From assembly GCA_027485675.1 (NCBI GenBank), contig JAIXQP010000017.1, forward strand, positions 124,001-188,000: a DNA stretch of 64,000 bases, given 5' to 3'. The number at the start of each line of letters is the position of its first letter. The stretch's first letter is position 1. Source of the DNA: Terriglobales bacterium (GTDB taxonomy: Bacteria; Acidobacteriota; Terriglobia; Bryobacterales; Bryobacteraceae). This document shows, piece by piece, positions 4,556 through 11,726 of this stretch. A model generated the notes under the pieces. It ran no database searches. It saw only the letters and a program-made list of their open reading frames with translations, and had not been told where the DNA came from. A program made the translations under genes and the position numbers.

Positions 4556-5409
4556 GCGATCCAGTCGAGCGTGGCCTTCCAGTCGAGCAGCCCACCGGTG
4601 GCGCCCGCCTGTTGAACGCTCAGCGCCCCGGCGGCATTCGCCACGCGGGCAGCCTCGACCATCGAATCGCCACGCGCGACTGCCGCCAGGTAGGCGCCAC
4701 AGAAGCAATCCCCCGCGCCGGTCGAATCCACGGCCTCCACCGCAAATCCCGGCACTTCCCGCCCGTCCACAGTACAGCCCGCCGCGCCCTGCTTCACAAT
4801 CGCCGGGCACGGGTACGGACCCGGCACCCACTGCGCCTCCGCCGCGTTGGCCAGCAGCAGGTCCGTGAACGGCAGACACGGTGCCACCACTTGCCCCCAC
4901 TCCCCCAACCGGTCCCACCCCAAGTCCATCGAAGTCCCCATCCCCCGCGCCTTGGCCTCGGCCAGCAACGCCGCCGCATGGCGCCGGACAAACGGTAAGG
5001 CAAACGGATTCGCCACGTGCAGATGGTCGAAGCCGGACGGCAGGGCAAAGCGGGCGTCAACGTTCACGCCCGGATGATGAAACAGCTGCCGCCGACCGTC
5101 GGGATGAAACACGCCCACAGTGGCGGCGGTCGCCCCGGGCAGCGTCTGCACGAATCGGCAATCCACGTCCACCTCCCGCAGCCGCTCCTCGAGCCACCGG
5201 CCGGCCGCATCGTCTCCGCGCACGCTCAGCAACGCCGCCTCGTGCTTCGTCCCCCGGCTCAACTTGCCGAAAGCGTAAGCTGTGGTTCCGCCGTTGCCGC
5301 CCAAGCCGGCGGCCATCGCCTCCACCCAGCGGGTGGTCTCCCACTCGAGTCCCTCCACGGGCCCCGCCAGCGTATCCCAAACCAAACTGCCGAGGACCAG
5401 AACCCGCAT
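4540..5409 (-). CDS. PfkB-family carbohydrate/nucleoside kinase
   Basis: A 289-residue cytoplasmic kinase of the ribokinase/PfkB family. The N-terminus MRVLVLGSLVWDTL and the GLGGNGGTTAYAFGKL stretch match the substrate-side signature, and DSTGAGDCFCGAYL near residue 240 is the anion-hole and catalytic-base motif (Asp of GAGD). It phosphorylates a small sugar or related alcohol with ATP; the sequence does not show which. It is the last gene of a minus-strand run after aroF and a membrane-anchored protein (9-nt gap to the latter), so it may share the aroF attenuator control. It ends inside the convergent mqnC gene. Confidence 0.82.
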   Translation of the reverse strand: MRVLVLGSLVWDTLAGPVEGLEWETTRWVEAMAAGLGGNGGTTAYAFGKLSRGTKHEAALLSVRGDDAAGRWLEERLREVDVDCRFVQTLPGATAATVGVFHPDGRRQLFHHPGVNVDARFALPSGFDHLHVANPFALPFVRRHAAALLAEAKARGMGTSMDLGWDRLGEWGQVVAPCLPFTDLLLANAAEAQWVPGPYPCPAIVKQGAAGCTVDGREVPGFAVEAVDSTGAGDCFCGAYLAAVARGDSMVEAARVANAAGALSVQQAGATGGLLDWKATLDWIAQFRK

Positions 5410-5418
5410 CGGCCCCAG

Positions 5419-6336
5419 CTACAATTGACCGCTCAGCAGCTTCTCGAGAAACGAACGGCTCACCGACCAGCGCCCCGTCACCACCGCCCCCTCCCGCGAG
5501 AACGTGCCACTCGTCAGGATTCCGCTCAAGTCGGCCGGGTTCGGCTGTTGATTCACGTTCTCGAGGTATTTGCGAAACACGTCGGTTACGCCCCGTAACT
5601 GGCTCTCCAAGCCGCCCGCCTCCCGCTCCGTCGCGCACTCGGCGCGCAAACGCAGTTCGGCGCCATTCTGGCCCGCGTGCAAACCGAGCGTCGCCACCTT
5701 GGCGTCGCCCAAGGCCTTCACAAAAAGTTTTGTCCCCGCCGGCAACGATTCATTGCGGCGCAGCGCCTCCCCGAGCGCCCCGGCCCACACCGGCGCGTCC
5801 GGAACCGGCAACTGGTTCGGAACCTTGTCCTGCAACTTCGAAACCGCCCACTCATCGCTCGATACCGCCATCCCGATCATCGAGTTGTGCAGCGGCACAA
5901 AGGAAACCACCCGCCGTGGAGTAGCCGCCGGTAACCGGCAAATGCCATTCCGGCAGGTGCCCCCGGAACGCCGGGTATGCTCCTGAATCGCTTTCCAATC
6001 AAAGCGCCCGGTGGCCACGATGAACACTTCCGAGTTGGCAAACCCCACCAGCGCCGAATCGAGATCGGCCCGGTAGTCGAATCCGGTCGAAGCGACAAAC
6101 GCTTGATAATCGGCATCCTCGGTCACGTTCTGGCCGGAAAGCAGCGCCAACAGCCCGGAGGAACGTAAGCTCTCCAAGTCCAGGTAGATCGCGCTCGTCC
6201 CGGCGGGCAACCGGTGTATCCGCTCGGTCAACTCGGGAACCCTGCGCGACCGGTTCCACACCAGTCCGCCGGCGATGGCCGCGCAAACGGCCACCACCAG
6301 CAGAGCTGCGGTCCAATTATGCCAGCGAAAACGCAT
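5419..6336 (-). CDS. Membrane-anchored protein of unknown function
   Basis: A 305-residue protein with one N-terminal membrane segment (about residues 9-27, TAALLVVAVCAAIAGGLVW) and a soluble region predicted outside the cytoplasm. No enzymatic motif is recognised; the first part carries a LPAGTSAIYLDLESLRSSGL stretch and the middle has two Cys in CRNGIC. The pattern of a short anchor plus a mixed alpha/beta domain resembles acidobacterial proteins annotated only as hypothetical. It sits 17 nt after the aroF stop and 9 nt before the kinase gene, so it is probably cotranscribed with both. A TAAGCT hexamer lies 6 nt before the ATG, so an internal leaderless transcript is possible. Confidence 0.7.
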   Translation of the reverse strand: MRFRWHNWTAALLVVAVCAAIAGGLVWNRSRRVPELTERIHRLPAGTSAIYLDLESLRSSGLLALLSGQNVTEDADYQAFVASTGFDYRADLDSALVGFANSEVFIVATGRFDWKAIQEHTRRSGGTCRNGICRLPAATPRRVVSFVPLHNSMIGMAVSSDEWAVSKLQDKVPNQLPVPDAPVWAGALGEALRRNESLPAGTKLFVKALGDAKVATLGLHAGQNGAELRLRAECATEREAGGLESQLRGVTDVFRKYLENVNQQPNPADLSGILTSGTFSREGAVVTGRWSVSRSFLEKLLSGQL

Positions 6337-6353
6337 GGATCAAGCTTACACCG

Positions 6354-7403
6354 CTAGACCGTCACCGCTTCGCCCACCCGCGAGTTCTTCCACAACGCGA
6401 TGTAGGGAGCCAGCTCCTTCATCATCTTGCGGAACTGATCGAGCGTCAGGCTCTGCGCCCCGTCGCTCACCGCCTTCTCCGGGCAAGGATGCGTTTCGAC
6501 AATCAGGCCATCGGCGCCAATCGCCACGCCCGCCCGGCAAAGCGGCGGCACCAGGCTGCGCTTGCCCACGGCGTGCGAAGGATCGAGAATCACCGGCAGG
6601 TGCGTCAACTCATCGAGCACCGAAACCGCCGTAATGTCGCACGTGTTCCGCGTCGCTGTCTCAAAGGTGCGAATGCCGCGCTCGCACAGCATGATGTTCG
6701 GGTTCCCGTGCGCCACAATGTACTCGGCCGACATCAGCAGCTCTTTGATCTGCGCGCTCAACCCGCGCTTCAGCATAATCGGGCGGCCACAACTGCCCAG
6801 CCGCTTCAGCAGGGCGAAATTCTGCATGTTCCGGGCGCCGATCTGCAGAATGTCGGCATACTCGGCCACCAGGTCGACGTCCTTTTCCGCCATCACTTCG
6901 GTGATGATCGCCAGGCCCGTCGCCTCGCGCGCCTTGGCCAGCAGCTTCAGGCCGTCCCCTTCCATGCCCTGGAAGTCGTAGGGAGAGGTGCGCGGCTTAA
7001 ACGCCCCGCCCCGTAGGATCTGCGCCCCGGCTTCCGCCACGGCGTAGGCCGATTCCATAATCTGCTTCTCGTTTTCAACCGAGCAAGGACCGGCCATCAT
7101 CACGAACTCGTCGCCGCCGATCTCAATCGGACCCTTGTGCGTGCGAACCGTGATCACGGTCGGTGCTGACTTGTACTCTTTCGAAACGAACTTGTAGGGC
7201 GCCGAGATGCGGACGGCCTTTTCGACCTGCGGCATCGCCTCGAGCGACTCGAGACAGTTGGTGACGTCACCGACGCCAACAACCCCAATCACGCAGCGCT
7301 CCTCTCCTTCGATGGCATGAATTTTGTAACCGAAGTGACGGATGCGGTCGCATACGGCTTCGATGTCTTCCTTGGTGCTGTGGAGTTTCATAGAAATGAT
7401 CAT
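6354..7403 (-). CDS. aroF: 3-deoxy-7-phosphoheptulonate (DAHP) synthase, AroF/KDPS-like type
   Basis: Catalyses condensation of phosphoenolpyruvate and erythrose 4-phosphate, the first step of the shikimate pathway. The 349 residues contain an N-terminal ACT-like regulatory region (about 1-70, [17 protein letters not shown]) and a TIM barrel with [41 protein letters not shown] and DPSHAVGKR, the PEP and metal-binding signatures of the type I-beta group. The frame stays open upstream to a GTG at 7568 but that part is the regulatory leader, so the ATG at 7403 is chosen; a second ATG lies at 7391. Expression is very probably controlled by the attenuator between 7618 and 7438. Downstream are a membrane-anchored protein and a PfkB kinase. 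Confidence 0.93.
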
Positions 7404-7437
7404 GGTTATCTTCTGCCTCGAAAGAACGGATCTCCCT

Positions 7438-7545
7438 AAAACGCGAAAACCCACTCTTTCGAGTGGGTTGGTTTTTGGGTTAAGAACTTTTTGTGTCCTA
7501 CCGCTGGGCCAACGCCACTCGCCGGTTTTGGTAATACCACCAAAA
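7438..7545 (-). promoter_or_regulatory. Transcription attenuator of aroF (antiterminator/terminator)
   Basis: Read on the minus strand. A first hairpin TTTTGGT/ACCAAAA (7545-7539 with 7532-7526) covers the aromatic codons of the leader peptide. Segment GAGTGGCGTTGG (7520-7509) can pair with CCAACCCACTC (7471-7461) over 11 bp with one bulged C: an antiterminator. The same CCAACCCACTC segment overlaps the 5' arm of a 9-bp terminator hairpin, AACCCACTC-GAAA-GAGTGGGTT (7469-7448), followed by TTCGCGTTTT. The two structures exclude each other. A ribosome paused on the aromatic codons would leave 7520-7509 free for the antiterminator; one that reaches the stop codon at 7500-7498 would cover that segment and allow termination. 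This is the classical trp-leader logic applied to DAHP synthase. Confidence 0.85.
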
Positions 7546-7581
7546 TCGGAACGAGGGAAATTGGGCACTCAGCGTTGACAT
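7498..7581 (-). CDS. Aromatic-amino-acid leader peptide of aroF (27 aa)
   Basis: A 27-codon open frame from ATG at 7581 to TAG at 7500-7498. Residues 11-17 are FRFWWYY: three Phe (with F8), two Trp and two Tyr in ten codons, all three aromatic amino acids whose synthesis begins with the downstream aroF product. The aromatic run lies just 5' of the antiterminator arm and the stop codon lies just 3' of it, as a ribosome-mediated attenuator requires. The ATG is only 8 nt after the -10 hexamer, so the message probably begins at or within two bases of the ATG; there is no room for a Shine-Dalgarno site. A GTG-initiated frame through the same region runs into aroF but lacks this codon pattern. Confidence 0.85.
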
Positions 7582-7589
7582 CTATTGCT

Positions 7590-7618
7590 AGTGTATACGG
7601 ACCCAGAAAAGATTGCAA
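7590..7618 (-). promoter_or_regulatory. Promoter of the aroF leader
   Basis: Minus strand: TTGCAA (7618-7613), 17-nt spacer, TACACT (7595-7590). The -35 matches four of six and the -10 four of six consensus positions at ideal spacing. Predicted start of transcription is about 7583-7581, at or just before the leader-peptide ATG. Confidence 0.7.
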
Positions 7619-7672
7619 GAGGCAGCAAATAGGTAATTTTTTCGTTACACCTGCCCAAGGTGTTATCCGGCC

Positions 7673-8251
7673 CTACCAAGCCCGCGACCAGCGCGCTCCC
7701 GCCACCTGATTCAGCTCCCGCAGCGCCGCCTGCGCCTTGGCCGCCACCTCCAACTTCCGCCCGAACAGCCACAGCAAATCGCTCAGCCGGTTCAGATAAG
7801 CCAGCACGTACGGCGCCAACTCCTCCTGCTCGCCCAACCGCACCACGTGCCGCTCGGCACGCCGGCAGATCGTCCGCGCCAGGTCATAATAAGCACCCGC
7901 CGGATCCCCACCCGGCACCGACCAGTCGCTCAGCAGCCCCGGCATCGCCTCCAGGGCATGCACCTGCGCCGTCAAGCCGTCCACCATCGCCTGCGTCACC
8001 GGCGGATCCCCCTTCCGGGCCTCCGTGGGCGTCGCCAGCGCCGCGCACACCCGGAACAGCTCCTGCTGAATCGCCAGCGTCGCCGCGGCAATGGCCTCAT
8101 CCCCGCAGATCGACCGGGCAAAGCCCAATGCCGCGTTCAGTTCGTCCACGGTGCCGTAGGTCTCCACGCGCAGAGACCCTTTCGAGACCCGTTCGCCGCC
8201 GACGAGGCTGGTTTGCCCGGCGTCGCCGAGTTCAGTTGCTATAGATGACAT
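7673..8251 (-). CDS. Cob(I)yrinic acid a,c-diamide adenosyltransferase, PduO type
   Basis: A 192-residue enzyme that transfers adenosyl from ATP to cob(I)alamin, making adenosylcobalamin. TELGDAGQTSLVGGERVSK near the N-terminus is the ATP-binding loop of the PduO/MMAB family, and RRAERHV plus YLNRLSDLLWLFGRK near the C-terminus are the other family signatures; the length is normal for a single-domain member. The start follows the DUF1501 stop by 6 nt on the same strand, suggesting cotranscription with genes to which it has no obvious biochemical link. No cobalamin riboswitch is visible. Confidence 0.9.
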   Translation of the reverse strand: MSSIATELGDAGQTSLVGGERVSKGSLRVETYGTVDELNAALGFARSICGDEAIAAATLAIQQELFRVCAALATPTEARKGDPPVTQAMVDGLTAQVHALEAMPGLLSDWSVPGGDPAGAYYDLARTICRRAERHVVRLGEQEELAPYVLAYLNRLSDLLWLFGRKLEVAAKAQAALRELNQVAGARWSRAW

Positions 8252-8257
8252 GAGTAG

Positions 8258-9658
8258 TTAAGCGAAAAGACGGTCGTGGACCTTCCCCTTGCCATCCTTA
8301 GTGACGTAAAAGGGACGCTGTTCGATTTCGTATTTTGTGTCCGGGGCGATTCCCAACGCCGAATAGAGGCTCGCATGCAGATCTTCAATCCCAATCGGGT
8401 CCTTGATCGTCTTGCAAGGCCGCTCCGGCGCCGTCTCCCCGTACACCGAGCCTTTCTTGATGCCGCCGCCAAAGGCCAGCACGCTCACGGCGTCCGTAAA
8501 GTGGCGATGCATCCCGTAGTGCTTCAAATCGGTCATGACTTCGGGCACCGTCACCTGGTTCTTCACCTCCAGCCCCGGCTTGCCTTCCGTCATCATGTCG
8601 CGGCCGAACTCGGTCGCCACCACCACCAACGTCGTATCCAGCAGCCCGCGCTGTTCGAGATCGAGAATCAGCTGCGCAATCGGCGCGTCAATCGTCTGCT
8701 TCATGCCGCGAACCCGGGTGTGGCCGTTCTCGTGCGTATCCCAGAAGCGGAACGGGATGTACTCGGTGGTCACCTCAATAAACCGCGCCCCCGCCTCCAC
8801 CAACCGGCGCGCCAGCAGGCAGCCGAGGCCAAAGCGCGAGGTGTTGTAGGTGTTGTAGGTCTTCTCGGGCTCAAGCGACAGATCGAACGCCTTCGCCGCC
8901 GGCGAAGTCAGCAGCCGGTGGGCGTTGTCGAGCGAGTTCAAAAAGCTCTCTTTCTGCGCGTTGCTGCCCTGCTGAATCGGGGAGGAGGCCAGCAGCTTCC
9001 GGTGCAGCTCCCGCCGGCTCGCAAACCGGCTCTGGCCAATCAGTTCGTTCGGCCGCGTCACCGCCACCGCATCGCGCGGATCCACAATGTGGAACGGCCC
9101 GTACTCGGCCCCCAAAAATCCCGCCGTGTGGAACGCCTTCACAGCGTCGGATTCGCCGCCAATCTCCAGATTCTGCCCAATCGAAAGGAACGCCGGAATG
9201 TCCGGGTTCTTCTTGCCCAGCGTCCGCGCCACAAACGCCCCGAAGTGCGGGCAGGCCACGCTCTGCGGCGGCGCATAGCCCGTGTGCCAATGGTACTGGT
9301 GCCGCGAGTGGAGAATAAACCCCAAATCACCCACCCGGTGCGACCGGATCAGCGTCCCGCGATCCATCACGCTCGCAATCTTCTCGAGGCCCTCCGAGAT
9401 CTGCACCCCATCAATCGCCGTCGGAATCGGCTTGAACGTGGAGAGCACCCGGTCGCTCGGCAACCCCGTTTCGTAAGGGGTATACTGCTTCGGGTCAAAC
9501 GTCTCGGTCTGCGCCATGCCGCCGGCCATCCAGAGCAGGATCATGCTGTCGGCTTTGCCGGAACGCGGCGCCGAAAGCAGCCGGGGACTATTGCCGTGCA
9601 GCGCGGCCAGCGTGGCGGCGGCGCCATGACGAAGGAAAAAACGGCGATCAATCGACAT
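8258..9658 (-). CDS. DUF1501 family protein with Tat-type signal
   Basis: A 466-residue protein beginning MSIDRRFFLRHGAAATLAAL, a twin-arginine type signal. The body matches the DUF1501 (sulfatase-like alkaline-phosphatase fold) family: ILLWMAGGMAQTETFDPK, HSRHQYHWHTGY, and VVVATEFGRDMMTEGKPG near the C-terminus. In Planctomycetes and Acidobacteria these proteins are nearly always encoded next to PSCyt/DUF1549-DUF1553 proteins, and the upstream gene here is exactly that, overlapping by 11 nt. The biochemical role is not established; export and a metal-dependent hydrolase fold are likely. Confidence 0.9.
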   Translation of the reverse strand: MSIDRRFFLRHGAAATLAALHGNSPRLLSAPRSGKADSMILLWMAGGMAQTETFDPKQYTPYETGLPSDRVLSTFKPIPTAIDGVQISEGLEKIASVMDRGTLIRSHRVGDLGFILHSRHQYHWHTGYAPPQSVACPHFGAFVARTLGKKNPDIPAFLSIGQNLEIGGESDAVKAFHTAGFLGAEYGPFHIVDPRDAVAVTRPNELIGQSRFASRRELHRKLLASSPIQQGSNAQKESFLNSLDNAHRLLTSPAAKAFDLSLEPEKTYNTYNTSRFGLGCLLARRLVEAGARFIEVTTEYIPFRFWDTHENGHTRVRGMKQTIDAPIAQLILDLEQRGLLDTTLVVVATEFGRDMMTEGKPGLEVKNQVTVPEVMTDLKHYGMHRHFTDAVSVLAFGGGIKKGSVYGETAPERPCKTIKDPIGIEDLHASLYSALGIAPDTKYEIEQRPFYVTKDGKGKVHDRLFA

Positions 9659-11726
9659 ACTGAAACTCCGGATGGTTGATCAAAATCCACAACAGGTCTT
9701 CCACCTCGGCCTTCTGCGCCAGCTCCCGTTCGGCGGGCGCGGGGGCCCGGCCCAGCGTCTGCAGGAAGAGGTCGTCCACCAGTTTGGCCGGCTTCCGCAG
9801 CGGCACCGGCGGGGCGTCGGTAATCCGCGCGAGCAGGTTCCGGTCCGGCGGCGCCGGGAAGATGTAGCCGCGCACGGCGCTATTGATGTCGCTCTGCTTG
9901 CCGGAAACATCAAGCTCCAGAGCGCCCGTCAACCGGTGCTCGCCGGGGGGAATCGTTAGCTTCACTACCTTTCCCAGACGGCCCTCTACCGCCACCGGTT
10001 TCCCGTCCAACTGTAAATCCAGCCAGCGGACCACGGTCCGTTCGGGGTCGAAGCTGCCAATATCATCCACCAGGAAGTGGACCTCCGGCCCCTTCACGGC
10101 GATATCGAACGGCCGCTTCCCTTCCCGGCGCAGGCCGGAGCTATCCCACAGGCTCTGCGGCGGCGTGGGCAACATGCCCACCAGCCGCTGCGCGCCGCGG
10201 CGGAGCTGCTGGTGAATCGTTACGCCGTTCACGAGTTCGAGCGCTTGCAGCGTCGAGCTCTCGGAGTTCCGCGTCGTGATCACCTGGTCGCGCATCGGGC
10301 GGCCCAGCGCACGGGTCAGCGCCGTGCTCCGCAGCTCCCACTCGCGCGCGAACCGCGCCGAGGTATCCGTCTGCACTACGCGCCACTCGCCGGTAATCGC
10401 CGAGAGCGTGTCCACAATCTGCTCGGCGGTCAGCCGCCGCGGCACGGGGCCCTGGAACTTGGTTGTCAGGTTCGCCTCGGCCGGCTGCTGCCAGGCGCGG
10501 CTGGTCATGATCAGCTTCACGAGCCGATGGATATCGTAGTCGCGCGCGAAATCCACGGCGAGCCAATCGAGCAGATCGGCGTTGAACGGCTCGGCGTCCA
10601 TATCGTCCACCGGTTCGACAATGCCCCGGCCAAAAAGCTTGGCCCAGATCCGGTTGACGAATGTCCGCGCCAGGCGCCCATTCTTGGGGCTCGTAAACAA
10701 CGCGGCGGCATCGGCCCGGCGGTTCTCGCCCACGGGCGGCCCTACGGCCGGAAACAGAAACTCCGGACCCACCTTCTCGCCGGTCTTCACGTCGCAGCGA
10801 TATAAATCGAGCTCCCGCTCTTCACTAAACAGCGCGGCCATCCCGTAGGCTTGTTTCAGCTTGTATTGGTTGATGAACGAGTCATGGCAGCTGGCGCACT
10901 TCAGGTTCACGCCCAGGAACACCTGCGCCGTATTCTGCGCCGCCTGAATCATCGGCCGCTGGCTCGCGTTCACGTCGCCACGCCAGTTGATGCCCAACAA
11001 AAAGCCCTCCGGCGAATCCGGACCCACCGGGTTCACCAGCTCCCGCACCATCTGGTCATAGGGCATGTTGGCGTTCAGCGCCTTGACGAGCCACGGCCGG
11101 ATCGACTTCTCGCCGCCATGGTAAGCCCGCAGGTCATCCCGCAGCAGATCGTTCCAGAAGCTGATCCAGTGCCCGGTCACCATCTTCCGATCGGCCAGCA
11201 GTTGGTCCACCAGTTTGGCCCGGTTGCCGTCGAAGCTGCGGAACTGCTCGGGGGTCGGGGTGATGCCCCACAGGTCCAGGTAGGCCCGGCGGACGAACAC
11301 CGCATCCGGCACCACTTTCCCAGTAAATCCTTGATTATAAAGGAGCTTATCAATTGGGTTCGTTTCGTTATTCTGCGGTAAAGCGACCACGCGGGGCTCG
11401 AGCGGAGCCCGCCAGGCCGACGGCGCTTTGTGCGAAACGTCCGTCCATGGCAGGTCCGCCTTCACCCACGCATCGAGGATGGCAATCTGTTTTTCGTCCA
11501 GGCTCTTGCCCGTGGGCGGCATCGGCAACCCGGCTTCGCCCTTCACCCGGGCGACAATCTCGCCCTTGCCCTTGAGCGCGCCCTCCCGCGTCGCCAGCGA
11601 GAAGCCGCCCTGCGGCGTCGCGCCGCTATGGCAACCCAAGCAGCGCGACGCCAGGATCGGATGCACGTCCGTCGCGAAATCCACGGCTCCGAGCGAGCCG
11701 GCAACGAAAAACAGAAGCCACCGCAT
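9648..11726 (-). CDS. PSCyt1-DUF1549-DUF1553 exported cytochrome-type protein
   Basis: A 692-residue protein with a signal peptide (MRWLLFFVAGSLGAVDF) followed at residues 29-33 by CLGCH, the heme c motif of the planctomycete cytochrome domain (PSCyt1). DUF1549 follows (PIDKLLYNQGF, RRAYLDLWGITPTPEQ, second CxxCH as CASCH), then DUF1553 (TFVNRIWAKLFGRGIVEPVDD). The domain order is standard for the family, though the C-terminal part includes an extra beta-rich segment (VHFLVDDIGSFDPERTVVRW). It overlaps the DUF1501 gene by 11 nt, the usual pairing. The role is unknown; co-occurrence with sugar oxidoreductases elsewhere suggests extracytoplasmic carbohydrate oxidation, which is inference. Confidence 0.9.
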   Translation of the reverse strand: MRWLLFFVAGSLGAVDFATDVHPILASRCLGCHSGATPQGGFSLATREGALKGKGEIVARVKGEAGLPMPPTGKSLDEKQIAILDAWVKADLPWTDVSHKAPSAWRAPLEPRVVALPQNNETNPIDKLLYNQGFTGKVVPDAVFVRRAYLDLWGITPTPEQFRSFDGNRAKLVDQLLADRKMVTGHWISFWNDLLRDDLRAYHGGEKSIRPWLVKALNANMPYDQMVRELVNPVGPDSPEGFLLGINWRGDVNASQRPMIQAAQNTAQVFLGVNLKCASCHDSFINQYKLKQAYGMAALFSEERELDLYRCDVKTGEKVGPEFLFPAVGPPVGENRRADAAALFTSPKNGRLARTFVNRIWAKLFGRGIVEPVDDMDAEPFNADLLDWLAVDFARDYDIHRLVKLIMTSRAWQQPAEANLTTKFQGPVPRRLTAEQIVDTLSAITGEWRVVQTDTSARFAREWELRSTALTRALGRPMRDQVITTRNSESSTLQALELVNGVTIHQQLRRGAQRLVGMLPTPPQSLWDSSGLRREGKRPFDIAVKGPEVHFLVDDIGSFDPERTVVRWLDLQLDGKPVAVEGRLGKVVKLTIPPGEHRLTGALELDVSGKQSDINSAVRGYIFPAPPDRNLLARITDAPPVPLRKPAKLVDDLFLQTLGRAPAPAERELAQKAEVEDLLWILINHPEFQYVD

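Follow-up and report, generated by a model that had tools for sequence, protein, structure and literature searches.

A conserved leader with Phe, Trp and Tyr codons upstream of aroF in Acidobacteriota, a probable ribosome-mediated attenuator

Does the short reading frame that lies upstream of the DAHP synthase gene aroF in a Terriglobales bacterium belong to an attenuator that senses all three aromatic amino acids? In the 64,000-nucleotide stretch of contig JAIXQP010000017.1 analysed here (the window), a first-pass annotation made from the sequence alone had placed a promoter, a 27-codon leader with Phe, Trp and Tyr codons and competing hairpins upstream of aroF, and all of these are present on the minus strand at the positions that it gave (Table 1). 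It had read the arrangement as attenuation of the classical trp type. That reading is supported as the best explanation by the conserved aromatic run, region 2, the terminator and the leaderless spacing, and the aroF element is, judged from sequence, very probably a ribosome-mediated transcription attenuator with any-of-three aromatic input.

Table 1 Features of the aroF leader and its neighbours, in window positions
Feature	Position	Strand	Remarks
−35 element TTGCAA	7613-7618	minus	read from sequence; CTTGC-type hexamers similarly placed in relatives
−10 element TACACT	7590-7595	minus	ends 8 nt 5′ of the leader ATG
Leader ORF, 27 codons	7498-7581	minus	ATG 7581-7579, TAG 7500-7498; recurs in relatives
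Sensor codons F-R-F-W-W-Y-Y	7531-7551	minus	Arg is the rare CGA
Hairpin 1:2	7519-7554	minus	5′ arm is the sensor codons; 3′ arm adjoins region 2 and overlaps its start; predicted folds
Region 2, CGAGTGGcGTTGG	7509-7521	minus	antiterminator 5′ strand
Region 3, CCAACCCACTCG	7460-7471	minus	common to antiterminator and terminator
Region 4, GAGTGGGTT	7448-7456	minus	terminator 3′ strand; covariation
Interrupted T tract TTCGCGTTTT	7438-7447	minus	after the terminator stem; read from sequence
aroF, type I DAHP synthase with N-terminal ferredoxin-like domain	6354-7403	minus	TIGR01361, PF00793, PF18152
Cobalamin adenosyltransferase gene	7673-8251	minus	upstream of the leader; TIGR00636
DUF1501 protein gene	8258-9658	minus	upstream neighbour

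The promoter is sigma-70-like, with a spacer of 17 nt between the −35 and −10 elements and 8 of 12 consensus matches, which is under the threshold of the promoter/terminator scan. The terminator is absent from the minus-strand list of that scan because its T tract is broken and holds too few T; the identical inverted repeat is listed on the plus strand. The calls of promoter and terminator at this locus rest on conservation in relatives. No Rfam 15 covariance model matches positions 5000-10000 at E values up to 1. Region 2 is composed of C7521-G7515 and G7513-G7509, with C7514 bulged, and makes 12 pairs with region 3; the terminator, nine pairs of region 3 with region 4, competes with this antiterminator. 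The pairings proposed in the first-pass annotation, 7520-7509 with 7471-7461 and 7469-7461 with 7456-7448, are correct, and C7521-G7460 can be added to them. Folded into hairpin 1:2 and the terminator, the 152-nt leader comes out 4.7 s.d. below its dinucleotide shuffles.

In the mechanism that we propose, transcription would start at or next to the leader ATG, and the ribosome would thus begin on a leaderless message. When Phe-, Trp- or Tyr-tRNA is short, the ribosome would stall within the F-R-F-W-W-Y-Y run, opening hairpin 1:2 and leaving region 2 free to pair with region 3, and the polymerase would read into aroF. When all three are plentiful, the ribosome would reach the stop codon and cover most of region 2, region 3 would pair with region 4 and transcription would end. 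With no ribosome on the message, hairpin 1:2 would hold the start of region 2 and the terminator would form by default. That stalling, termination and readthrough occur in vivo we infer from sequence.

The distances fit a ribosome that frees region 2 at the sensor codons and covers it at the stop codon, given a ribosome footprint of about 28 nt. With this footprint, a ribosome that has Tyr17 in its A site would reach to about 7521 and leave region 2 almost free, and one at the stop codon would cover up to about 7518. The aromatic core ends a median of 21 nt upstream of region 2 (98 leaders). Region 2 itself starts at a variable distance from the first base of the stop codon, with a median of 2 nt downstream of it and quartiles of −15 and +6. 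In this genome, region 2 sits within the last leader codons.

A match to aroF is present in 60 of 61 genomes, and 51 orthologous upstream regions were read. Between leader ORF and gene, 35 of these carry an intrinsic terminator, mostly of the form CCCACTC...GAGTGGG, whose T tract is interrupted at the present locus. A simple aromatic-run rule picks out the leader in 27 of the 35 terminator-bearing regions, and two of the remaining eight are cut by a contig edge. The canonical terminator is absent from 16 of the 51 regions, and hence aroF can live without the element; these include all 11 regions of genus g21 (L041-L049, L051 and L052), which have neither canonical leader nor canonical terminator. 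Elsewhere, promoter, peptide, region 2 and terminator recur upstream of aroF, and region 2 and the terminator are conserved up to other families of the class. The first-pass annotation had asked for this comparison and had named a lack of conservation as the outcome that would count against it; the aromatic codon run and the pairings are conserved in relatives, so that outcome did not occur.

None of 18 upstream regions of a paralogous second DAHP synthase (approximately 50% identical) contains a leader and terminator. By our own reading, the paralogue in this genome and its near kin lies downstream of an apparent chorismate mutase gene. The division of the element between the paralogues is not absolute, since in G024, G171, G419 and G079 the element precedes a DAHP synthase that shares only 43-54% identity with the present aroF. 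Visual inspection of 20 trpE loci from relatives, and of pheA in this genome, revealed no leader of the aroF type, with terminators unscored and at least five of the 20 trpE loci unjudgeable (contig edge or wrong frame picked); trpE was not found in G000. The cobalamin adenosyltransferase and DUF1501 genes upstream have no evident tie to aromatic synthesis. The aroF reading frame itself stays open 5′ to a GTG at 7568, across the attenuator (404 aa, 6354-7568), and long open frames also occur in several relatives; automatic annotation could overextend aroF across the leader.

Leader peptides were collected blind to their aromatic content, by terminator and −10 element alone. From 158 regions, of which 20 have no terminator by the rule used and 22 have no ORF with a −10 element at 4-10 nt, 116 leader ORFs were obtained. 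Phe, Trp and Tyr account for 719 of their 2,284 codons (31.5%), compared with 10.0% (s.d. 0.5) in shuffles, 9.0% and 5.3% in the other two frames of the same leaders, and 7.7% in 34 long ORFs of the window. All three amino acids are found in 103 of the 116 peptides. Both at this locus and in the 116 leaders, what reads as a short ORF rich in end-product codons thus lies between promoter and gene.

A −10-like hexamer ends 8 or 9 nt 5′ of the start codon in 85 of the 116 leaders, a spacing that falls inside the range demanded in their selection, and a Shine-Dalgarno-like motif is present in just four. The spacing and the scarcity of such motifs fit leaderless initiation, so that the leader ORF is probably translated from a leaderless message, with a transcript start inferred from the spacing to be at or beside the leader ATG. 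The distance of 8 nt noted in the first-pass annotation is correct here, and the leaderless spacing is conserved in relatives as distant as other families within the class.

The pairings were assessed in two alignments. Of 70 upstream regions fetched, alignment A1 keeps 33. It excludes L009 and L010, which lie at contig edges, L025, which has a terminator but no visible aromatic leader, L027-L030 and L032, which have no canonical terminator, the 11 g21 regions and the 18 regions of the paralogue. A1 was not fitted to the terminator, and in it the terminator has changed on both sides of a pair in 9 cells, compared with 2.5 in shuffles (0 of 500 shuffles). A2 comprises 100 further sequences, namely 100 of the 120 fetched model matches described below, without L208-L227; in this alignment, which was fitted to the terminator of the model, the both-side changes number 46, compared with 14.7 (0 of 500 shuffles). 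The antiterminator pairing is kept in 82.8% (33 sequences) and 80.3% (100 sequences) of cells, above every shuffle. Its covariation is modest in the 33 sequences (15, 16 and 23 of 500 shuffles on three measures, 199 on a fourth) and is not above shuffles in the 100 sequences (184 to 369 of 500, four measures), after which it was dropped as the main proof of the antiterminator. One strand serving two helices would hold covariation back, which may account for the weak signal; this is an argument, not a proof. The covariation that the first-pass annotation proposed to look for is borne out for the terminator; for the antiterminator the pairing is kept, with covariation that is modest in one alignment and not above shuffles in the other.

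Duplex energies were also compared, and for these and the distances above four of the 116 leaders were dropped as mis-picked frames. The duplex of regions 2 and 3 has an energy of −20.1 kcal/mol, compared with −12.9 kcal/mol for shuffles, and in 60 of 112 leaders the duplex is more stable than every one of its 60 shuffles. When regions 3 were swapped between leaders, the own region 3 was better than the mean foreign one in 93 of 112, in statistics that ignore relatedness. In G057, which belongs to another family, regions 2, 3 and 4 have changed together, from GAGTGG to CAGGCG. The paired cells and the duplex test point to an antiterminator and a terminator that have one strand in common, the 5′ strand of the latter, and are mutually exclusive.

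A covariance model built from the 33 regions has a single strong match in this genome (E = 7.6e-25; the next has E = 0.029), with no convincing further copies. At E values up to 0.01 it matches in 203 of 399 genomes of the class; the many weak matches, mostly in family f11, are probably chance terminators. Among the matches listed, 120 places outside the training set were fetched, passing over the training places and some weak matches. A DAHP synthase gene lies directly downstream in 107 of the 120, and the 13 misses are two contig ends, one short aroF remnant and ten weak matches (E of 5.7e-7 or worse). Split by strength, the strongest 106 (E up to 3.9e-8) are followed by a DAHP synthase in 103 cases, the exceptions being the two contig ends and the remnant, and the 14 weaker ones in four cases, with none in ten. 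Counted together with the training regions, the matches place the element in six families (f1, f2, f3, f4, f6 and f7), with f2 represented by one genome. The remnant, L151 (G166:C496, on the same contig as L270), has both leader and terminator complete, but the likeness to aroF behind them stops after about 20 residues. A contig end is ruled out, since the contig runs on for 352 bases downstream and holds no more of aroF than this short start; G166 holds another complete copy with aroF (L209), and L151 looks like a decayed duplicate.

A separate exact DNA pattern was run over named genomes, many of whose contigs are the same as in the model scan. It has 68 matches, 66 in Acidobacteriota (in records named Bryobacterales, Solibacter, Terriglobia, Candidatus Sulfopaludibacter and others) and two in Alteromonas. 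aroF follows in 63 of the 68, and in two more the contig stops 26 and 21 residues into aroF; the remaining three are an aroF remnant, also found in the model scan, and the two Alteromonas matches. The nearest aroF genes in these records are those of MAG Ga0077553 (98.9% identity) and Candidatus Sulfopaludibacter SbA3 (97.3%, over 110 residues).

The aromatic run is interrupted by a rare CGA Arg codon at 7548-7546. Of the 116 leaders, 95 have an Arg flanked by aromatic residues ([FYW]R[FYW]), which is encoded by CGA in 64 of the 95. By comparison, CGA makes up 4.0% of Arg codons in the 34 ORFs of the window; in the aroF portions from two sets of relatives its share is 8% and 11%, relatedness being ignored. 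In the predicted fold of hairpin 1:2, the third base of the codon covaries with its partner, which is G for CGC in 14 of 16 and C for CGG in 11 of 11, and T for CGA in 28 of 64. This covariation indicates that hairpin 1:2 has the sensor codons themselves as one of its arms, and it weakens an explanation of the Arg by selection purely at the peptide level. Pairing is not the whole reason for CGA, as the fold leaves 20 of the 64 CGA codons without any paired base. The codon may also act as a slow pacing codon or as a polymerase pause site.

The three-way input could be narrower than the codons suggest: the attenuator may be the same, with only one or two of the amino acids mattering in vivo and the other codons being passengers. 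The Phe-Tyr-Phe leader of Corynebacterium glutamicum, which the available excerpts report to answer to Phe and not to Tyr (PMC4046766, PMC11802643), sets a precedent, and 13 of the 116 leaders are without at least one of the three residues. However, the other 103 carry all of them, and wherever between F8 and Y17 the ribosome stalled, region 2 would stay nearly free here, with the footprint used above; we regard the narrower input as possible though doubtful. The leader could, besides attenuating, act in trans through its terminated RNA or its peptide, as rnTrpL and peTrpL of Sinorhizobium do. The likeness of a leaderless leader RNA ended by a terminator to rnTrpL speaks for such an additional role, but from family to family the peptides diverge widely in their N-terminal parts, and the role is unlikely.

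An alternative sensor would be the nascent peptide, with [FY]RFW stalling the ribosome on a free aromatic ligand instead of an uncharged tRNA, an arrest of the ligand-responsive type known from TnaC. The recurrence of Arg between aromatic residues would suit this, as would the survival of F-R-F, by our own reading, in several f3 leaders whose hairpin arm has moved. Against it, hairpin pairing explains much of the Arg codon, Trp or other residues replace Arg in some leaders, the length and order of the aromatic run vary among the 116, and arrest by excess ligand has the wrong sign for a biosynthetic gene, so that peptide arrest appears very improbable. Finally, the hairpin could be the plain terminator of the cobalamin adenosyltransferase gene, which does lie upstream on the same strand, with the short ORF as a by-product; a promoter and a conserved aromatic ORF stand between that gene and the terminator, and the leader-terminator block accompanies aroF across families, which leaves this explanation scarcely credible. 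Attenuation by a ribosome that reads all three aromatic codons is the reading retained below.

Enteric trp and pheA leaders start from a Shine-Dalgarno sequence. As in these attenuators, the present element has regions 1-4, alternative 2:3 and 3:4 pairings and a leader-peptide sensor, going by the available excerpts (PMC1183508, PMC11802643); the enteric elements differ from it in sensing one amino acid each and in serving branch genes, not the common first step. The leaderless sensor ORF, with a transcript beginning at the leader ATG, has its counterpart in trpLE(G) of Sinorhizobium meliloti, which is described in the source excerpt as sensing Trp only, with trpE(G) as its target (PMC7298713). 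For DAHP synthase genes, attenuation has been proposed, by computation only, for aroF-tyrA of Vibrio and for aroF of Shewanella, the latter with a Tyr-tRNA idea (PMC1173090, PMC2659441, in part). In Acholeplasma, a uORF and terminator are likewise predicted upstream of aroF (the uORFC-13-1 motif), with Phe codons and a ribosome-binding site and in another phylum; as excerpted, this is a prediction only (PMC8632094).

A close counterpart is C. glutamicum aroF, whose aroR-aroF attenuator was reportedly described by Neshat et al. in 2014. There, too, a DAHP synthase gene is attenuated through an aromatic leader peptide; in contrast to the present leader, the F-Y-F motif of that peptide holds no Trp, and it belongs to another phylum, as far as the excerpted descriptions, on which the comparison rests, allow. 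An Actinobacteria survey did not see, in the part available, conserved RNA elements upstream of operons for phenylalanine and tyrosine (PMC1262725). For Acidobacteria, one source states in its excerpt that function is almost unassigned in the phylum (PMC2965389), and another counts leader genes near structural genes and does not name such an attenuator in the part available (PMC4833913). In the open-licence literature searched, no precedent was found for a three-way aromatic sensor or for the phylum. A 2010 survey by Lopatovskaya and colleagues, cited in PMC4833913, may mention Acidobacteria.

The novelty claimed in the first-pass annotation thus holds for the three-way sensor and for the phylum, and not for leader control of a DAHP synthase, which is reported in Corynebacterium and predicted in Acholeplasma. 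The three-way leader seems to be undescribed in Acidobacteriota. What is new is the phylum, the Phe, Tyr and Trp sensor, the wide conservation, the placement of the sensor codons in hairpin 1:2 and the rare CGA within the run; we regard the element as a new family within a mechanism long in the textbooks, one that takes pan-aromatic input. The phylum gains a concrete, widely conserved and testable element, without an Rfam match, at the gate of the whole pathway, and with it a natural test of one leader that integrates three amino acids, of a leaderless start in attenuation and of a rare Arg codon that is kept.

Outside the class, the model matches at E values up to 1e-4 in 19 of 396 genomes of the phylum, ten of these genomes lying outside the class. 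One match was read in each of the ten: four precede a DAHP synthase gene (for L301 and L302 the downstream gene was identified by tblastn only), five precede trpE and one is a tRNA region. The DAHP synthase leaders (L300-L302 and L308) read NWFWWSW in three cases and VFSYGFTY in one, and the terminators of L300-L302 differ from that described above (CCCACCC...GGGTGGG). The trpE leaders read NNYFWCWY, YNYAWRWY, MNYWWY (twice) and YAWWWY; in L303, L304, L305, L306 and L309, a leader with Trp and Tyr codons and a terminator lie directly upstream of trpE. The occurrence of both kinds of leader outside the class suggests that control of aromatic genes by leader attenuation may occur widely across the phylum, its targets differing by lineage. 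Tentatively, and with some doubt, these observations might be joined: the leaderless attenuator would be old in the phylum and act as an any-of-three gate, CGA would time the ribosome against the polymerase, and the design would have moved between DAHP synthase and trpE genes from class to class.

Two of the places read contain leaders of another kind. In L311 (G165, f11), at about bases 180-260, a short ORF with five consecutive Cys codons, MTTISNTFSFRCCCCCNVTGVRG, is followed by a terminator, and the two, all read by eye, precede an ORF that resembles a peroxiredoxin; this short ORF is perhaps part of a Cys-sensing attenuator. In L316 (G293, f7), at bases 122-255, a short ORF ends in CGYWCAYRLGCCCPLERGAG, with several Cys codons, and is followed by a hairpin with a T run and then by an ORF of 347 residues.
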